Program-made: the position numbers and the translations under genes
The notes under the pieces: model-generated
The model's database searches: none
What the model saw: only the letters and a program-made list of their open reading frames with translations
What the model was told of the DNA's origin: nothing
Shown: positions 9,218 through 15,260 of the stretch, one piece after another
Layout: each line of letters opens with the position of its first letter
Numbering within the stretch: position 1 is the stretch's first letter
Assembly: GCA_018823045.1 (NCBI GenBank)
Contig: JAHJIX010000022.1
Span: forward strand, 65,508 to 98,745
Direction of reading: 5' to 3'
DNA: 33,238 bases
From: Patescibacteria group bacterium
Lineage (GTDB): Bacteria; Patescibacteriota; Patescibacteriia; Magasanikbacterales; UBA922

Positions 9218-10285
9218 TTAACGAGCTTTTATCATCTGTTGTACCCGAGCAAGCGCTTGGGTACTTATTTTTTTTCGAAATAGTGGATCTGTTATATATT
9301 GCTCTACCGCATCAACAATTTCTTTTTCTTTTGTTCCGTCAACAAGCAGACCTGTTTCATTATGAATAACCGCCTCTTTGACTCCCCCACTATTTCCAGC
9401 AACAACAGGGAGACCCATAAGCGCCGCTTCTAAAAACACCAAACCAAATCCTTCTTCCTTTCCATCATGCGCTTGTGGTAAGAGGCAAAAGATATCAGCC
9501 ACAGACATATACAATGGAATGTCGCTCTGTGCAAGTGCACCCAAAAAACGTACTTTTTGGATAATACCAGCTTGCGTACACATATCAACATAAGCATTCT
9601 TTTTTCCTCCATCACCAATAATCATCCACACAAGTGATGGATGTTTTTTCATGAGCACAGCCATAGCAGAAATTAACTGCTCAAATCCTTTTCCTTCTAC
9701 TAAACGCGATACAGACAAGACAACAGTTTGACCATGCAAAGAAAGCCGAGCACGCAGTGCCTCTTGCTGTTGAATTACTATTTCTTTTGAAAAAACAGCA
9801 TCTGGTAATGGGTACACTACTGTTACAACCTCTTTTAACTGTGGCCATGCTTCTACTACACGATCTCTAAGTGATTGACTATTTACAACAATACGCTGTG
9901 CCGCTTGCAATACTACAGAAGTAAAACGCTTCTTTTTTGCATACGCAACATCAGTCCCATGTAAATAAACAGTATATGGAATCTTTTTTAATAAACAAAT
10001 AATGTAAGCCACATATCCCATAGGGAGCACATGATGCACTTCAATATGCTTAATATCTTCTTTTTTAATAATATCTAATGCAATATATACTGTTTTTAGC
10101 CATTTTGGCCAAAAAAAACGAAAAAATACCTGTCGTCTATATACTCGATCTTCCTTCCCAACATATGATATGTTTGGTGCCAAAACAATAATATCTTTTT
10201 GTGTATGCACTCGAGCAGCAACGTAGCTTGCAACTCCACCAATATTTGGAGGAAAATCAAGCGTAATTAATAAGGTTTTTGGCAT
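9218..10285 (-). CDS. Glycosyltransferase family 4-like (GT-B fold)
   Basis: 355 aa. The N-terminal acceptor domain starts MPKTLLITLDFPPNIGGVASYV, with the glycine-rich turn (IGGV) of GT4 enzymes. The C-terminal donor-binding domain contains VLSVSRLVEGKGFEQLI and the E-x7-E motif region EGFGLVFLEAALMGLPVVAGNSGGVKEAV, which binds the nucleotide-sugar. There is no signal peptide, so it acts at the cytoplasmic face, transferring a sugar to a lipid-linked or surface glycan. Donor and acceptor cannot be predicted. The ATG lies in AATATG with no Shine-Dalgarno. It is a single gene, convergent with the adhesin-like gene and divergent from the structured transcript at 10367. Confidence 0.92.
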   Translation of the reverse strand: MPKTLLITLDFPPNIGGVASYVAARVHTQKDIIVLAPNISYVGKEDRVYRRQVFFRFFWPKWLKTVYIALDIIKKEDIKHIEVHHVLPMGYVAYIICLLKKIPYTVYLHGTDVAYAKKKRFTSVVLQAAQRIVVNSQSLRDRVVEAWPQLKEVVTVVYPLPDAVFSKEIVIQQQEALRARLSLHGQTVVLSVSRLVEGKGFEQLISAMAVLMKKHPSLVWMIIGDGGKKNAYVDMCTQAGIIQKVRFLGALAQSDIPLYMSVADIFCLLPQAHDGKEEGFGLVFLEAALMGLPVVAGNSGGVKEAVIHNETGLLVDGTKEKEIVDAVEQYITDPLFRKKISTQALARVQQMIKAR

Positions 10286-10366
10286 ATTTAAGCTATTTTT
10301 TTATATAATTATATCAATATCATACGATATTTTACGCTATTTGTCTACCGCATAGGGGTCTCCCAC

Positions 10367-10395
10367 TTGACAAAATGCTCCAAATGATTTATGCT
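10367..10395 (+). promoter_or_regulatory. Strong sigma-70 promoter of the structured transcript
   Basis: TTGACA (10367-10372), 17-nt spacer, TATGCT (10390-10395). It shares ACTTGACAAAATGCTC exactly with the promoter at 6659. Confidence 0.75.
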
Positions 10396-10531
10396 GTTTT
10401 ATCTTAAATAGTTCTTTATACAAAAAAAAGTTTATCAGAGGAAATAATCGCTTAAAGAATACACTTAAGCTACTATTCCCCCTGGTAAACAATAACGGTA
10501 TAGATATAATCTTTCAGGGGGCTAGTAGATT

Positions 10532-10657
10532 ATGTCTATGGGAGTCAAAGAATGGGCAAACATTCAGACAACCAAAAAAGAGGGTGGAGAAAGCCTCCCC
10601 CTCCGAAAACCCCATTCGAAGAGTGGGTTTTCGGAGGGGGGCAGCCGAAGGGGATAA
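10532..10657 (+). CDS. Possible 41-aa small ORF inside the structured transcript
   Basis: ATG at 10532 to TAA at 10655-10657, beginning MSMGVKEWANIQTTKKEGGE. A purine-rich CAGGGGG lies 11 nt before the start and could act as a Shine-Dalgarno, though it also pairs in a helix. The peptide is polar, basic at the end, with no cysteines or membrane segment. The ORF reads through the 16-bp stem and stops in the loop of the alternative stem, so translation would change which fold forms. No homologue recognised; it may be only a chance ORF in an RNA gene. Confidence 0.35.
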   Translation: MSMGVKEWANIQTTKKEGGESLPLRKPHSKSGFSEGGSRRG

Positions 10658-10721
10658 CCACCCCAACGGCCCCCCCCTCATCCTCTCGCCGCTAACAGAT
10701 AATCACTGTTAGCGGCAACAA

Positions 10722-10759
10722 AACCCAGGCACTCTGTGAGCGCCTGGGTTCTTTTTTTT
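10722..10759 (+). terminator. Rho-independent terminator of the structured transcript
   Basis: AACCCAGGC/GCCTGGGTT hairpin (10722-10730 with 10742-10750) followed by CTTTTTTTT. Confidence 0.9.
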
Positions 10760-10775
10760 ATATAAACAAATTTTC

Positions 10776-11579
10776 TTACCAAACATCAGCAATACGCGCT
10801 CGTTGTTTTGTTTTAAGCAAAGACATGTATTGATCAATAAAACTATACGAAAATATGACGTAACCAAAAATCCAAAACAAATCAATATAAATATACGGAC
10901 GTAATGCTTCTTCATATGGAGTATTATATATCCCAAAGAAGATATCTGCCAATAAGAAAAAAACAAAAGCAATCACAATGCCCCGCCAAAATCGAGCAAA
11001 TTTTCCTCCTTTATACATAAATACTCCTACACCTGCAATAATCGCAGCAACAATCAATACCAAATCACCCACACCATAACTCATCGCCATAATATTTTCT
11101 AAAAAAGAAGAGTCCATATCATAAGCACCATAAATGCCAAAGTATGAGACTAAGACAATGGCCAATAATACAATAACTTTATATGGCCAAGCAACAAATG
11201 CTCTTAACTGTTTTGTGGTAATATCAAGTAAGCGAAACTTTTTTAATAATGCCATCAATAATAACGGATATCCTAAAAGAAAAAACACGTCGGCAGAAGA
11301 AGGAAATGGATCAACCGCAAGATATTGCTCAAACATATACCAAATGGTTTCACCGAGTGTCCAACAAACAAGACCTGCAGTAAACAATAATAAAATTTGA
11401 CCATTTTTATTTTTCACCCCATACATACGCGCCAACATAAATCCAGAAACAATTGCTAACACAGGAAAAAACAAATATGCTGTTGAGCGAACGATAGAAT
11501 CAATATCTGCAATATACGACCATACAATTAACAAAAAAAGTATACTCATAGGTGCAACAATATACCCATTTATTCTCAT
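10776..11579 (-). CDS. Polytopic membrane protein of unknown function
   Basis: 267 aa from the ATG at 11577-11579 (MRINGYIVAPMS). The track's TTG start would overlap the upstream small gene. About eight hydrophobic spans are visible, e.g. SILFLLIVWSYIA, AYLFFPVLAIVSGFMLA, ILLLFTAGLVCWTLGE, VFFLLGYPLLLMALL, IVLLAIVLVSYFGIYGA and VFFLLADIFFGIY. Conserved-looking polar residues sit in 'WTLGETIWY' and 'PFPSSADVFFLLGYP'. The latter resembles the 7-TM sensory input domains found in front of histidine kinases and GGDEF proteins, but no output domain follows. It might be a stand-alone sensor or transporter-like protein. It is preceded within 8 nt by the 66-aa gene and ends facing the terminator of the structured transcript. 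Confidence 0.75.
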   Translation of the reverse strand: MRINGYIVAPMSILFLLIVWSYIADIDSIVRSTAYLFFPVLAIVSGFMLARMYGVKNKNGQILLLFTAGLVCWTLGETIWYMFEQYLAVDPFPSSADVFFLLGYPLLLMALLKKFRLLDITTKQLRAFVAWPYKVIVLLAIVLVSYFGIYGAYDMDSSFLENIMAMSYGVGDLVLIVAAIIAGVGVFMYKGGKFARFWRGIVIAFVFFLLADIFFGIYNTPYEEALRPYIYIDLFWIFGYVIFSYSFIDQYMSLLKTKQRARIADVW

Positions 11580-11586
11580 ACGATTT

Positions 11587-11787
11587 TTATTTAATCCCAA
11601 ATTTATGTAATTGTTTTTTTGCAACTGTTTCTCCTAAATATTCCGTCAACAATTCAACAACTGACTCTCCAATTATTTCTGCTGGCTTATCTTCATAAAA
11701 ATTATTATATATTTTTGCCATGTCCTCCCCAAAGTAGATAGTAATAATATCTACGGCTTTACTCCTTATATTTCTCGTATTATTCAT
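11587..11787 (-). CDS. Conserved-looking 66-aa small protein
   Basis: 66 aa starting MNNTRNIRSKAVDIITIYFGE. It is soluble, with predicted helices and a repeated 'YFGEDMAK...YLGETVAKKQL' pattern: two copies of Y-(F/L)-G-E-x-(M/V)-A-K about 30 residues apart, suggesting an internal duplication. It ends 7 nt before the membrane-protein ATG, so the two are likely cotranscribed. No family recognised. Start context TTATG, no Shine-Dalgarno. Confidence 0.65.
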   Translation of the reverse strand: MNNTRNIRSKAVDIITIYFGEDMAKIYNNFYEDKPAEIIGESVVELLTEYLGETVAKKQLHKFGIK

Positions 11788-11875
11788 AACAAATATTTAT
11801 ATAATCATCTCTATTATAACACAAGTATTTTTATCTGCATATATTAAAAAACAAATAACCCCTCCTATCTGTTTT

Positions 11876-13573
11876 TTATTTTGTCACTCGTATCAACTGA
11901 CCTAACTCTGCCCCACAAGCCATGACTGTAATCTTTCTGTGATTATGCTCTCGCTTTATTGCATAATACGTTCTCTCATCAGTACCTTCTTTAGGATCAA
12001 TAGGCATAATTGGTACATAATTTGCCAAGTCGGCAACAATATCAATACACGCGGCTTCAGTTACAAATGATTCTTCTGATTGTTCTGTTTGCCAAATTTG
12101 ATAATCATACAATCGGAAAAAAAATCCTGCATTATGTGCTGTAGAAAAACGAATTCGCGATTGCGTTACTACTTGCTCAGCAAAGACAACTTCCACCCAC
12201 GAACGATCATCAAAATCTCCTTGATATGCATCAATCCAATTTCCATCAACAAAAATATCTACATCAACATGAGCGACTTCTGCATTATTGAGGGCATAAA
12301 AACGCAACTTATCATAATTAACCGGAGCATGATTAAAATAAATGAAATCACTCCACTGAGCTCCTCCTATTGGGCGATACCACCGTGTATATGATACCAA
12401 ATTTGCATCGTACCCATTCAATTGAGTTTCCCAACCATTACCACTTGAACTTTGTGGAATAACCCACGCAGCTCCCTGGGTTGCCGTTCGGAGTGTCTGG
12501 TCACCACAACGAACAGTGCTCGTACTGTTTCTAATCTCCATCGTATAATGATAATCAGTATTTCCATTTAAATTGTTCACTAACTCTTGCATAGTGTCTC
12601 CCGTGCTTTGATTTCCTGTCCACGCAGTGCTCCCACCATACTGATTTGTTTCTCCATATAAAAAACGATATTCTACAGGCTCTCCCCCGTCATCAGCTAC
12701 TGCACCATGTAAAATTGCAGAACTTTCACCAACATAGGTTGTTTGCACTTGCCCACATACAGGTGCAACTATCTCATTTGCTGTTTGATATACTTCTAAC
12801 TCATATAGCCAATAAATAAAATTAGCAACTTTATAATTCCACCGAAAACGTACTTGCTCTACACTTCCTTTTGCATATCCAATTTCAACCCAATCAACAT
12901 TCCATGTTGCTTCATCTCCCCCTTGAAATACATCTACCCATACACCATCTCTAAATACATCTACATCAACTTCCGCAATATCTGCATCTGTATAATCTGC
13001 CAAAATACGCAAACGATCTGAAATGGTTGGTTGATCAAGGGTTAACACAATATACTCTCCCCATCCGACAATAAGAGATTCATCACTTGCATAAAGACCC
13101 CAATCACCATCATATGCTCGTGCTTCATTAATCCATTTATTCCCAGGATCTTGAAAACCTGTTGGAGATACCCAACCAGAAAAAGGCGCAGCATATGCAA
13201 CATCTATTTGAAAAAATCCTTTAACAGCTTCAGCAAACTTTGTTGTATCAAATAGCCACGGTTTTTGTTCATCAATATTAATCGTTGCAATAGCAGAAGC
13301 ATTACACACAACACTACAACCATTGGCAGCAGTTCCAATCATTCGTAAACTTCCATCAATTTGAGGAAACCCTCCGCCTTCGTCAATTGTATATAATTTT
13401 ACAGCAGTTGCAATTGCTTCAGCATGAGACCAACGCTCTGCATTGCGACTTTCTGCAAATCGCTGCTCAGGTTTAAGTGCCACAAAAGCAACGAAAACAA
13501 CAATTGCCAAAATAAAAATAACAATCATCATTTCAATGAGTGTAAACCCTCTTTTATTTATAATAAATACCAT
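11876..13573 (-). CDS. Giant pseudopilin-like protein with fibronectin/discoidin-like domains
   Basis: 565 aa from the ATG at 13571-13573; the track start is a TTG three codons upstream. The N-terminus is a textbook type IV prepilin: a short basic leader NKRG, then FTLIEMMIVIFILAIVVFVAFVAL with Glu at +5 of the mature protein, processed by a prepilin peptidase. Residues ~45-75 form the usual amphipathic helix. Where a normal pseudopilin ends at about 150-200 aa, this one continues. There are two similar domains containing 'DRLRILADYTDADIAEVDVDVFRDGVWVDVFQG' (~190-260) and 'DKLRFYALNNAEVAHVDVDIFVDGNWIDAYQG' (~420-490), resembling discoidin-type beta-sandwiches. Between them is a fibronectin-III-like segment (~270-360, 'SSAILHGAVADDGGEPVEYRFLYG'). 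It is probably incorporated in or capping a type IV pilus-like filament and binding an external ligand. Ligand unknown. Confidence 0.88.
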   Translation of the reverse strand: MVFIINKRGFTLIEMMIVIFILAIVVFVAFVALKPEQRFAESRNAERWSHAEAIATAVKLYTIDEGGGFPQIDGSLRMIGTAANGCSVVCNASAIATINIDEQKPWLFDTTKFAEAVKGFFQIDVAYAAPFSGWVSPTGFQDPGNKWINEARAYDGDWGLYASDESLIVGWGEYIVLTLDQPTISDRLRILADYTDADIAEVDVDVFRDGVWVDVFQGGDEATWNVDWVEIGYAKGSVEQVRFRWNYKVANFIYWLYELEVYQTANEIVAPVCGQVQTTYVGESSAILHGAVADDGGEPVEYRFLYGETNQYGGSTAWTGNQSTGDTMQELVNNLNGNTDYHYTMEIRNSTSTVRCGDQTLRTATQGAAWVIPQSSSGNGWETQLNGYDANLVSYTRWYRPIGGAQWSDFIYFNHAPVNYDKLRFYALNNAEVAHVDVDIFVDGNWIDAYQGDFDDRSWVEVVFAEQVVTQSRIRFSTAHNAGFFFRLYDYQIWQTEQSEESFVTEAACIDIVADLANYVPIMPIDPKEGTDERTYYAIKREHNHRKITVMACGAELGQLIRVTK

Positions 13574-13626
13574 GTGAAGCAAATGACAGACTAACTGTAT
13601 ATTAGTATATCATATTTTTACACAAC

Positions 13627-13651
13627 AAAGAACGATATTTTATCGCTCTTT
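13627..13651. terminator. Hairpin at the end of rlmN
   Basis: AAAGAACGATA (13627-13637) pairs with TATCGCTCTTT (13641-13651) with one mismatch. It lies about 20 nt past the rlmN stop; U-tracts are present on both strands but better on the plus strand. Confidence 0.5.
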
Positions 13652-13670
13652 TTATAAATTCTATTCTATT

Positions 13671-14687
13671 TTATGCTTTTTTATTTCTCTTTGTTGCAAG
13701 TTGTCCACAGGCAGCATTGATATCACTACCAAATGCATGACGTTGTGTCACATGCACTCCTGATCGTTGAAGTATCCGTTTAAACTGTTCAATCTTTTCT
13801 GCTTTTGATGGTTTAAATACCCCTGTTGGATTATAACGAATCAAATTTACCATATACAACTTATCTTGCATAAGCTCTGCAAGCTCACGTGCATGCTCAG
13901 GAGCATCATTTATTCCATCAAGCATAATATATTCAAACATCACACGTCTTCCACATTTTTCTCGATAATGCTTCACACTATTCATGAGATCTTTAATACC
14001 ATATTTACGATTAATCGGCATAAGTTGACTACGAAGTACATCATTTGGGGCGTGTAAAGATATTGCTAAATTTACCTGTAATGGCTCATTACTTAAATAT
14101 TCAATACCATCAATAATACCACTTGTTGAAATAGACATATGTCGCGCACCAATACCAAACACATCTGTATTATTCAATAATCGAATCGTTTCCATTACCG
14201 CCTGATAATTCATCATTGGCTCCCCCATACCCATAAACACAATATTGGTGATGCGTTGATGTTTTGCTTTTTTTTCTTTTAAATACCTCGCAAACACAAG
14301 AACTTGCGCAACCATTTCTCCAACAGTCAAATTTCTTTCCATGCCAAGCATGCCCGTTGCACAAAATTTACAACCTAGAGAACAACCAACTTGAGAAGAA
14401 ATACAAGCGGTATTTCGGCCATCACTATGACGTAAAAGCACTGTTTCTACTTTTGCTCCATCTTCAAGCTCAATTAATGCTTTTAAAGCATCTGACTTTT
14501 TAGAATCAGCAAATTCTACAGAAATATCTAAAGAACAAGCTTCTTTTAAATCAGCTCGTGTTTCTTTTGGTAAAGTCGTATTTTCGCTCCAATCAGTAAT
14601 TAAATCTTGAAATACAGATTTATATGCTTGTTTCATACGAAATGCAGGTGCTTTTCCTAAAATATTGTTTAATTCTTCGATAATCAT
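13671..14687 (-). CDS. rlmN: Dual-specificity 23S rRNA/tRNA adenine C2-methyltransferase RlmN
   Basis: 338 aa, near the family's usual length. A radical-SAM enzyme that methylates C2 of A2503 in 23S rRNA and, in some bacteria, A37 of tRNAs. The [4Fe-4S] cluster motif is C102-x3-C106-x2-C109 in SSQVGCSLGCKFCATG. The VFMGMGEPMMNY segment and the SISTSG segment are the SAM-binding GEP and serine motifs. The C-terminal resolving/methyl-carrying cysteine is in FGSDINAACGQL. All key residues are present. It is monocistronic, preceded by CTTTTTATG, and divergent from the tRNA-Asn gene. Confidence 0.97.
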   Translation of the reverse strand: MIIEELNNILGKAPAFRMKQAYKSVFQDLITDWSENTTLPKETRADLKEACSLDISVEFADSKKSDALKALIELEDGAKVETVLLRHSDGRNTACISSQVGCSLGCKFCATGMLGMERNLTVGEMVAQVLVFARYLKEKKAKHQRITNIVFMGMGEPMMNYQAVMETIRLLNNTDVFGIGARHMSISTSGIIDGIEYLSNEPLQVNLAISLHAPNDVLRSQLMPINRKYGIKDLMNSVKHYREKCGRRVMFEYIMLDGINDAPEHARELAELMQDKLYMVNLIRYNPTGVFKPSKAEKIEQFKRILQRSGVHVTQRHAFGSDINAACGQLATKRNKKA

Positions 14688-14845
14688 AAAAAGAAATTAT
14701 ATGAATTATATTATAACACAGATATATCATATTGTCAATATAAAAATAGCTAAAATAAGCGATTCTTTTCTATGCATCTTCCTAGGAATACAAAAACACT
14801 TTTACACACAATGTTTAACCATCCACAAATACTTCGTAATTACGC

Positions 14846-14873
14846 TTGCATTTTTTTTTAGATACTGTATAAT
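14846..14873 (+). promoter_or_regulatory. Promoter of the intron-containing tRNA gene
   Basis: TTGCAT (14846-14851), 16-nt spacer, TATAAT (14868-14873), 40 nt before the mature tRNA 5' end. Confidence 0.7.
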
Positions 14874-14913
14874 AAAGCTGTTATATTTTTTAATATAACC
14901 ATACAATATACAT

Positions 14914-15257
14914 TCGACGGTAGCTCAGTGGTAGAGCAATTGGCTGTCAACAGTGGCAGCTCTTAGTAGGAATACTAAGATGAAAAACAAGGTGAACTGC
15001 AGGAAGCCCAACCTGAGCAATCAGAACGGGTAATCTGCAGCCAAGCTGGATCTATTTTTAATAGATCCAGAAGGTTCAGAGACTATCCCTAACGGGAGTA
15101 GGGTTCAAACATATATTTGAATTCGAAGCGCCTTGCACCCCAAATGCTCTTGATTAAATCAAGTTTTTAGCATGGGTGATGATATAGTCCACGCTTTCTA
15201 GTAATAGGGAGGTAACGTGTAACCAATGGGTCGCCGGTTCGAGCCCGGCCCGTCGAG
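14914..15257 (+). tRNA. tRNA-Asn(GUU) interrupted by a group I intron
   Basis: Exon 1 (14914-14947) plus exon 2 (15220-15257) give a 72-nt tRNA. The acceptor stem is TCGACGG/CCGTCGA. The D-arm is GCTC-AGTGGTA-GAGC. The anticodon stem ATTGG/CCAAT encloses the loop CTGTTAA with anticodon GTT. The variable region is GGGTC, the T-arm GCCGG-TTCGAGC-CCGGC, and the discriminator is G73. CCA is not fully encoded. The splice sites were chosen because exon 1 then ends in U paired to G in P1, the intron ends in G, and the joined loop matches canonical tRNA-Asn. The intron lies between anticodon positions 35 and 36. Reading the DNA without splicing shows GTC, which would be miscalled as Asp. An alternative splice giving UGU (Thr) fits P1 less well. 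Confidence 0.9.
14948..15219 (+). ncRNA. ORF-less group I self-splicing intron (IA-like)
   Basis: 272 nt. P1: exon GGCTGT with the internal guide GCAGCT (14956-14961), ending in the conserved U-G pair. P2: TCTTAGTA/TACTAAGA (14961-14968, 14973-14980) with a GGAA loop. P3: CAAGGTG (14988-14994) with CGCCTTG (15129-15135). P4: CTGCAG (14997-15002) with CTGCAG (15035-15040). P5: CCC/GGG, capped by CTGA-GCAA-TCAG. P6: an 11-bp hairpin (15046-15070). The R element GTTCAGAGACTA and S element GATATAGTCC form P7 (15081-15086 with 15184-15189). P8: CACCC/GGGTG with a nested hairpin. P9: 15194-15211 with a GTAA loop. The terminal omega-G is at 15219. Two extra hairpins between P7 and P3 (CCCT/AGGG and TTCAAA/TTTGAA, 15087-15121) resemble P7.1/P7.2 of subgroup IA. 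No homing endonuclease is encoded. Confidence 0.93.
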
Positions 15258-15260
15258 CAA

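Follow-up and report, generated by a model that had tools for sequence, protein, structure and literature searches.

A hairpin-rich block between two minus-strand genes

The stretch of DNA analysed here (the window, 33,238 nucleotides) corresponds to positions 65508-98745 of contig C22 in a genome of 1.16 Mb and 24 contigs. The small size of the genome, its genes and a group I intron in a tRNA point to a bacterium of the Patescibacteria type. An intergenic stretch of about 390 bases in this window separates a gene for a family 4 glycosyltransferase (9218-10285, minus strand; PF00534, E 1e-37) from one for a 282-aa membrane-type protein without family match (10776-11624, minus strand). We refer to this stretch as the hairpin block; the glycosyltransferase gene is the next gene downstream of it on the minus strand. 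Orthologues of the glycosyltransferase were found in 39 of 39 relatives, and the membrane-type protein in 3 of 59 genomes, its own genome counted.

A promoter-like sequence on the plus strand, TTGACA-17-TATGCT (10367-10395), opens the block and would be expected to start a transcript near 10402. An earlier note, made from the DNA letters, had called it a consensus promoter; its −35 element is indeed perfect, but only 4 of the 6 positions of the −10 element agree, giving a total of 10/12. Back to back with it lies TAGACA-17-TATGAT on the minus strand (10319-10347, 10/12), which is probably the promoter of the glycosyltransferase gene. A third site, TTGGCA-18-TATAAT (10923-10952, minus strand, 11/12), is situated inside the membrane-protein gene and reads into the block. 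Sites of at least 10/12 occur in the contig at 0.38 per kb per strand, 17 sites of the 11/12 type are present in 98.7 kb when both strands are counted, and the promoter scan returned 2 promoter-like sites where 2.1 would be expected from shuffles. A site of at least 10/12 was found in the upstream regions of 10 of 28 genes on the right strand versus 4 of 28 on the wrong strand, and the motif is therefore mildly informative in this contig.

The supposed transcript had also been described as GC-rich. This applies to 10516-10759 (53% GC versus 34% for the contig) but not to the first 114 nt (10402-10515), where GC content is 28%. GC richness concerns 10516-10720, the early part of the supposed transcript being AT-rich, and the most GC-rich 200-nt segment of the contig is located at about 10551.

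Fold strength and competing stems

The region 10402-10759 was predicted to fold with −153 kcal/mol, compared with about −92 kcal/mol in dinucleotide shuffles (z −11.3 and −10.2 in two runs), and the excess persisted when the last two hairpins were left out (z −8.5). The block is the most stable region in the 98.7 kb of the contig; its best 120-nt segment reaches −84 kcal/mol, and the next region of the contig −52 kcal/mol. Fold strength does not distinguish the strands, with z values of −10.3 for the minus and −10.2 for the plus strand.

Along the block we distinguished hairpin A (10430-10490), hairpin B with a 13-bp stem (10500-10539, inverted repeat I4, pair probability about 0.98), hairpin D (10580-10603), stem E (10597-10640), stem F (10634-10679), hairpin G with a perfect 11-bp stem (10688-10716, seen both as an inverted repeat and in the fold) and the terminator-like hairpin T. 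In its long form, E is the perfect 16-bp stem of the earlier note, and its two arms (10597-10612/10625-10640) pair exactly as claimed. The second stem said to compete with it is likewise present as an 8-bp helix (10634-10641/10672-10679), the outer helix of F, which encloses two inner helices. Stem E thus shares 7 nt with D (10597-10603) and 7 nt with F (10634-10640). Neither a 16-bp helix nor such a competing pair appeared in any of 1000 dinucleotide-preserving shuffles, so that the competing stems exceed chance. On the plus strand, folding was predicted to end in the three-hairpin form (about 93%), which is 3.8 kcal/mol more stable than the long stem. The two minus-strand states hardly differ in energy (−65.0 versus −65.6 kcal/mol, within 0.6 kcal/mol).

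Small open reading frames

A 41-codon ORF (10532-10657, plus strand) runs through the first of the competing stems, and its stop codon (10655-10657) falls in the loop of the second, as had been reported together with the proposal that translation could toggle the fold. We found a longer overlapping frame that had been missed, a 47-codon ORF (10552-10695, plus strand) with a Shine-Dalgarno-like GGGAG, 7 nt upstream of the ATG, that is better placed than that of the 41-codon ORF. We therefore considered a small-protein gene, in which the 47-codon ORF (MGKHSDNQKRGWRKPPPPKTPFEEWVFGGGQPKGITTPTAPPSSSRR) would be translated and the GC content of the block would come from its proline and glycine codons. 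The position of GGGAG is what such a gene would show, and ORFs of at least 47 codons appeared in 4-9% of shuffles (P about 0.04-0.09 for the longest ATG ORF). Codon usage points the other way. It scored −0.56 bits per codon for the 41-codon ORF and −1.03 for the 47-codon ORF, compared with a median of +0.22 and a minimum of −0.35 for the genes, which places the longer frame far beyond the range of the organism's genes. Nor did the 47-aa peptide have a relative by tblastn or by pattern search in the genome and viral contigs; weak tblastn matches in relatives proved on inspection to be due to chance or low complexity. No Pfam or NCBIfam match was obtained for the 41-codon ORF and no family for the 47-codon ORF, so that neither organism-like codon usage nor a conserved peptide speaks for a small protein. 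In addition, perfect stems run through the frame, and by a crude count only 12 of 75 genes have an SD-like motif in front of them. Both ORFs are thus probably not coding, and a small-protein gene is the least probable of the explanations we weighed. With codon usage unlike that of the genes and a 47-aa peptide without relatives, the proposed toggle by translation is therefore unsupported.

Comparison with known RNA families

The block had been taken for an undescribed RNA resembling no housekeeping RNA, and it is indeed undescribed in Rfam and unlike the housekeeping RNAs. In an Rfam 15 scan no family reached its gathering score, and the best match at E<=10 was sX11 (32.2 of 70 bits). The match to sX11 sRNA (RF02230; 32.2 bits, E 2.6e-4) involves hairpins G and T on the plus strand; however, it lies far under the gathering score of 70 bits and covers the last 69 nt only, which are mostly terminator. 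The ylbH leader (RF00516) gave a weak minus-strand match at 10646-10757 (24.4 bits, E 0.0039), but this too is under the gathering score (50 bits), comes from GC-rich hairpins and precedes a different gene, the next gene here being the glycosyltransferase. Identities with RNase P RNA, 6S RNA and tmRNA were considered and dropped. RNase P RNA lies elsewhere in the genome (C11:81637-82164), the 6S family model had no match in the genome, and ARAGORN detected no tmRNA in the window. The block is not a housekeeping RNA; such RNAs would also be conserved, and the block is not.

Screens for GC-rich intergenic structured RNAs (GC-IGR) use GC-rich structured intergenic stretches of AT-rich genomes as a signature (PMC6429828). 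The block resembles these candidates in being such a stretch in an AT-rich genome, but differs in having no homologues, whereas the candidates of the screens were judged from homologue alignments (PMC6429828).

Absence of relatives and the site in a sister species

BLASTN with the core of the block returned its own genome only, among 380 phylum-wide genomes and 86 genomes of the order; matches in other genomes concerned T-type terminator sequences or AT-rich stretches only. In 46 family genomes and 381 class genomes, a covariance model of the core matched nothing beyond the core itself and its reverse strand. The genomes searched at the level of class (381), phylum (380) and order (86) yielded no homologue that would place the block in a conserved class of structured ncRNA. 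No DNA similarity to the block was detected in phages and plasmids, and its DNA patterns were found neither in viral contigs nor in genome contigs. As positive controls, RNase P RNA (E 3e-25) and the tRNA intron (E 2e-89) were both found in the sister species G001; an orthologous RNA evolving at the rate of either would therefore show there.

No counterpart was located by synteny, whether via the membrane protein (loci L032 and L033) or via the glycosyltransferase. As the glycosyltransferase gene mostly lies directly behind another gene in relatives, no leader is conserved. The gene order in the sister species is sigma factor, HTH, DUF11 protein, glycosyltransferase, tRNA with intron, and cupin. 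In the window, the glycosyltransferase and the tRNA-intron locus are set apart by a segment at 10286-14900 that contains the hairpin block, the orphan membrane protein, a pilin-like protein and RlmN; the corresponding site in the sister species (L064, G001:C27) is without this segment. The segment with the block would thus have been gained here, or lost or moved in the sister species. The tRNA at this locus is a tRNA-Thr (TGT; 14914-15258, plus strand), the anticodon loop of which is split by a group I intron about 272 nt long (Rfam Intron_gpI, 87.4 bits); the sister species has the same arrangement with about 80% identity.

These results bear on whether the block might be a hairpin-rich DNA element (a palindrome cluster, a mobile-element remnant or a chance relic in a recently rearranged spacer), the transcripts of which would have no regulated function. 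Its location in a segment absent from the sister-species site, its occurrence in a single genome and an AT-rich inverted repeat at its ends (10407-10430/10751-10774, 83%) are consistent with such an element. By contrast, the block is present as a single copy in its own genome, with no adjoining transposase, and U-tracts lie exactly behind three hairpins on one strand, which argues for transcription signals. We consider a DNA element unlikely.

Terminator-like hairpins and the question of strand

The strong terminator proposed for the plus strand was recovered as hairpin T (10722-10750), followed by CTTTTTTTT (−19.6 kcal/mol; 10722-10759 with the U8 tail). T is also terminator-like when read on the minus strand (−22.2 kcal/mol, tail UUUUGUU), where it is probably the terminator of the 282-aa membrane-protein gene as well, because a very similar sequence lies directly behind a Clp-type ATPase gene in a relative (L002, about 1505-1544). 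Among relatives, closely similar terminator hairpins of the AACCCAGG type turn up in different gene contexts (L002, 1501-1544; L005, 1501-1538).

Two further hairpins end in U-tracts on the minus strand. Hairpin D, followed there by UUUUUU (10574-10603, −15.8 kcal/mol, tail score 4.19), is a candidate terminator and was also picked up by the scan that returned the promoter-like sites. Hairpin A, followed by UUUUUUUUG (10421-10490, −25.6 kcal/mol, tail score 5.48), has both the lowest energy and the best tail among all minus-strand terminator-like candidates in 98.7 kb. On the minus strand, a U-tract thus follows immediately on 3 of 8 hairpins (T, D and A), compared with a single hairpin (T) on the plus strand. 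In the U-tail search, about 1.5% of minus-strand positions qualify, or at most about 4.5% with offsets of +/-1, and by post hoc arithmetic 3 U-tailed hairpins in 8 would arise by chance with a probability of about 0.5% or less.

The block may alternatively contain a lineage-specific sRNA gene on the plus strand, running from about 10402 to T (about 358 nt), with a product that would act in trans or as antisense to transcripts of the membrane-protein operon. A promoter is followed by a U8-tailed terminator, that strand carries no gene here, the fold is strong, and the promoter is back to back with the likely glycosyltransferase promoter in a common divergent layout. However, the promoter matches at just 10/12 (0.38 sites of at least this quality per kb per strand), and D and A would be terminators on the other strand only. 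Without a relative in the genomes searched, the supposed sRNA gives no sign of selection, and upstream of 75 contig genes no 6- or 7-mer was found that would be complementary to its 9-nt unpaired pyrimidine stretch at about 10680. The signals expected of an independent sRNA are, on the plus strand, a 10/12 promoter and T; the minus strand offers an 11/12 promoter together with T, D and A. An independent plus-strand RNA appears to fit these signals no better than a transcription-stop block read from the other strand, and we regard the sRNA gene, the main rival to the reading favored below, as possible, if somewhat doubtful.

A two-way RNA switch would combine both strands. The plus-strand RNA from the 10367 promoter and the minus-strand RNA from the 10923 promoter would overlap completely, each with its own terminator, an arrangement we judge very unlikely. 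In such a switch, it would depend on duplex formation or transcription collision between the two whether transcription of the minus strand gets past D and A to reach the glycosyltransferase gene.

A putative minus-strand terminator/attenuator

We tentatively favor a reading, at somewhat short of an even chance, in which the block is a lineage-specific minus-strand terminator/attenuator before the glycosyltransferase gene, either regulated or merely insulating. Its main job would be stopping or switching minus-strand transcription headed for that gene. Polymerase arriving from the operon of the membrane protein, or starting at the 11/12 promoter within that gene, would move toward the glycosyltransferase gene and encounter T, D and A as successive intrinsic terminators. 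On the minus strand the stems come in the order F, long-form E and D, with overlaps of 7 nt each and the U6 tract right after D. This is the arrangement of an attenuator, with overlapping alternative stems of which the last is followed by a U-tract. F, the candidate anti-antiterminator, would form first and keep E from adopting its long form, so that D could terminate at the U6 tract. If F were held open by some signal, the long form of E, the candidate antiterminator, could form and take the 5' arm of D, and polymerase would pass. Plain insulating tandem terminators without regulation are included in this reading.

Several features argue modestly for the minus-strand terminator/attenuator: the U-tailed hairpins T, D and A; the order of F, E and D; the near-equal states on that strand; the 11/12 promoter reading into the block; and the position of the glycosyltransferase gene as the next gene on that strand. 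Competition among D, E and F would have a visible output on the minus strand (the U6 tract after D) and none on the plus strand. A lean in G-U pairs, of which the two folds contain 9 on the minus versus 3 on the plus strand, is in the same direction but not significant (two-sided sign test, about 0.15). Against this reading is the arrangement of the leader itself. A clean leader would have no promoter or terminator before its gene; here D is separated from the glycosyltransferase gene by both A and the 10/12 promoter (10347-10319), and read-through at D would still meet A. Also against it are the lack of relatives, with which no conservation or covariation is seen and no conserved leader is found, the neat framing of the block by the plus-strand promoter and T, and the equal z values of both strands; nor did a ligand, protein site or leader peptide emerge from the analysis.

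The closest parallel is the B. subtilis rplJL leader, where an anti-antiterminator, antiterminator and terminator layout has been demonstrated, with overlaps of 8 and 5 nt (L10(L12)4 attenuation; PMC4538822). The block read on the minus strand is similar in having three successive nucleotide-sharing stems, the last of which is followed by a U-tract, with overlaps of 7 and 7 nt, its strand and transcription being putative. It differs from the rplJL leader in its downstream gene, the glycosyltransferase, in the extra strong terminator A before that gene and in its lack of conservation. We do not claim membership among attenuators, because the leader is not cleanly placed with respect to the gene and its signal dependence is putative; on paper, the block is attenuator-like. 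By anatomy, it is a new orphan of known kinds (attenuator, terminator block or sRNA) and as it stands a well-formed yet orphan candidate. If transcribed and regulated, it would be an element of transcription attenuation from a lineage with small genomes that has been little studied.

Other structured RNAs of the lineage

Little literature on structured RNAs in this lineage was found among open papers, and a 2024 review describes even basic expression tools as lacking (PMC11665869). Among 20 genomes of the family scanned for 6S RNA, none had a match above threshold, and one sub-threshold match was recorded (L067, G002:C2:449-546); RNase P RNA was found in 18 of the 20. The RNase P RNA of the genome analysed here (G000:C11:81637-82164; L074 and L093) measures about 528 nt, versus roughly 375-450 nt in most relatives, and carries extra sequence that is partly AT-rich.
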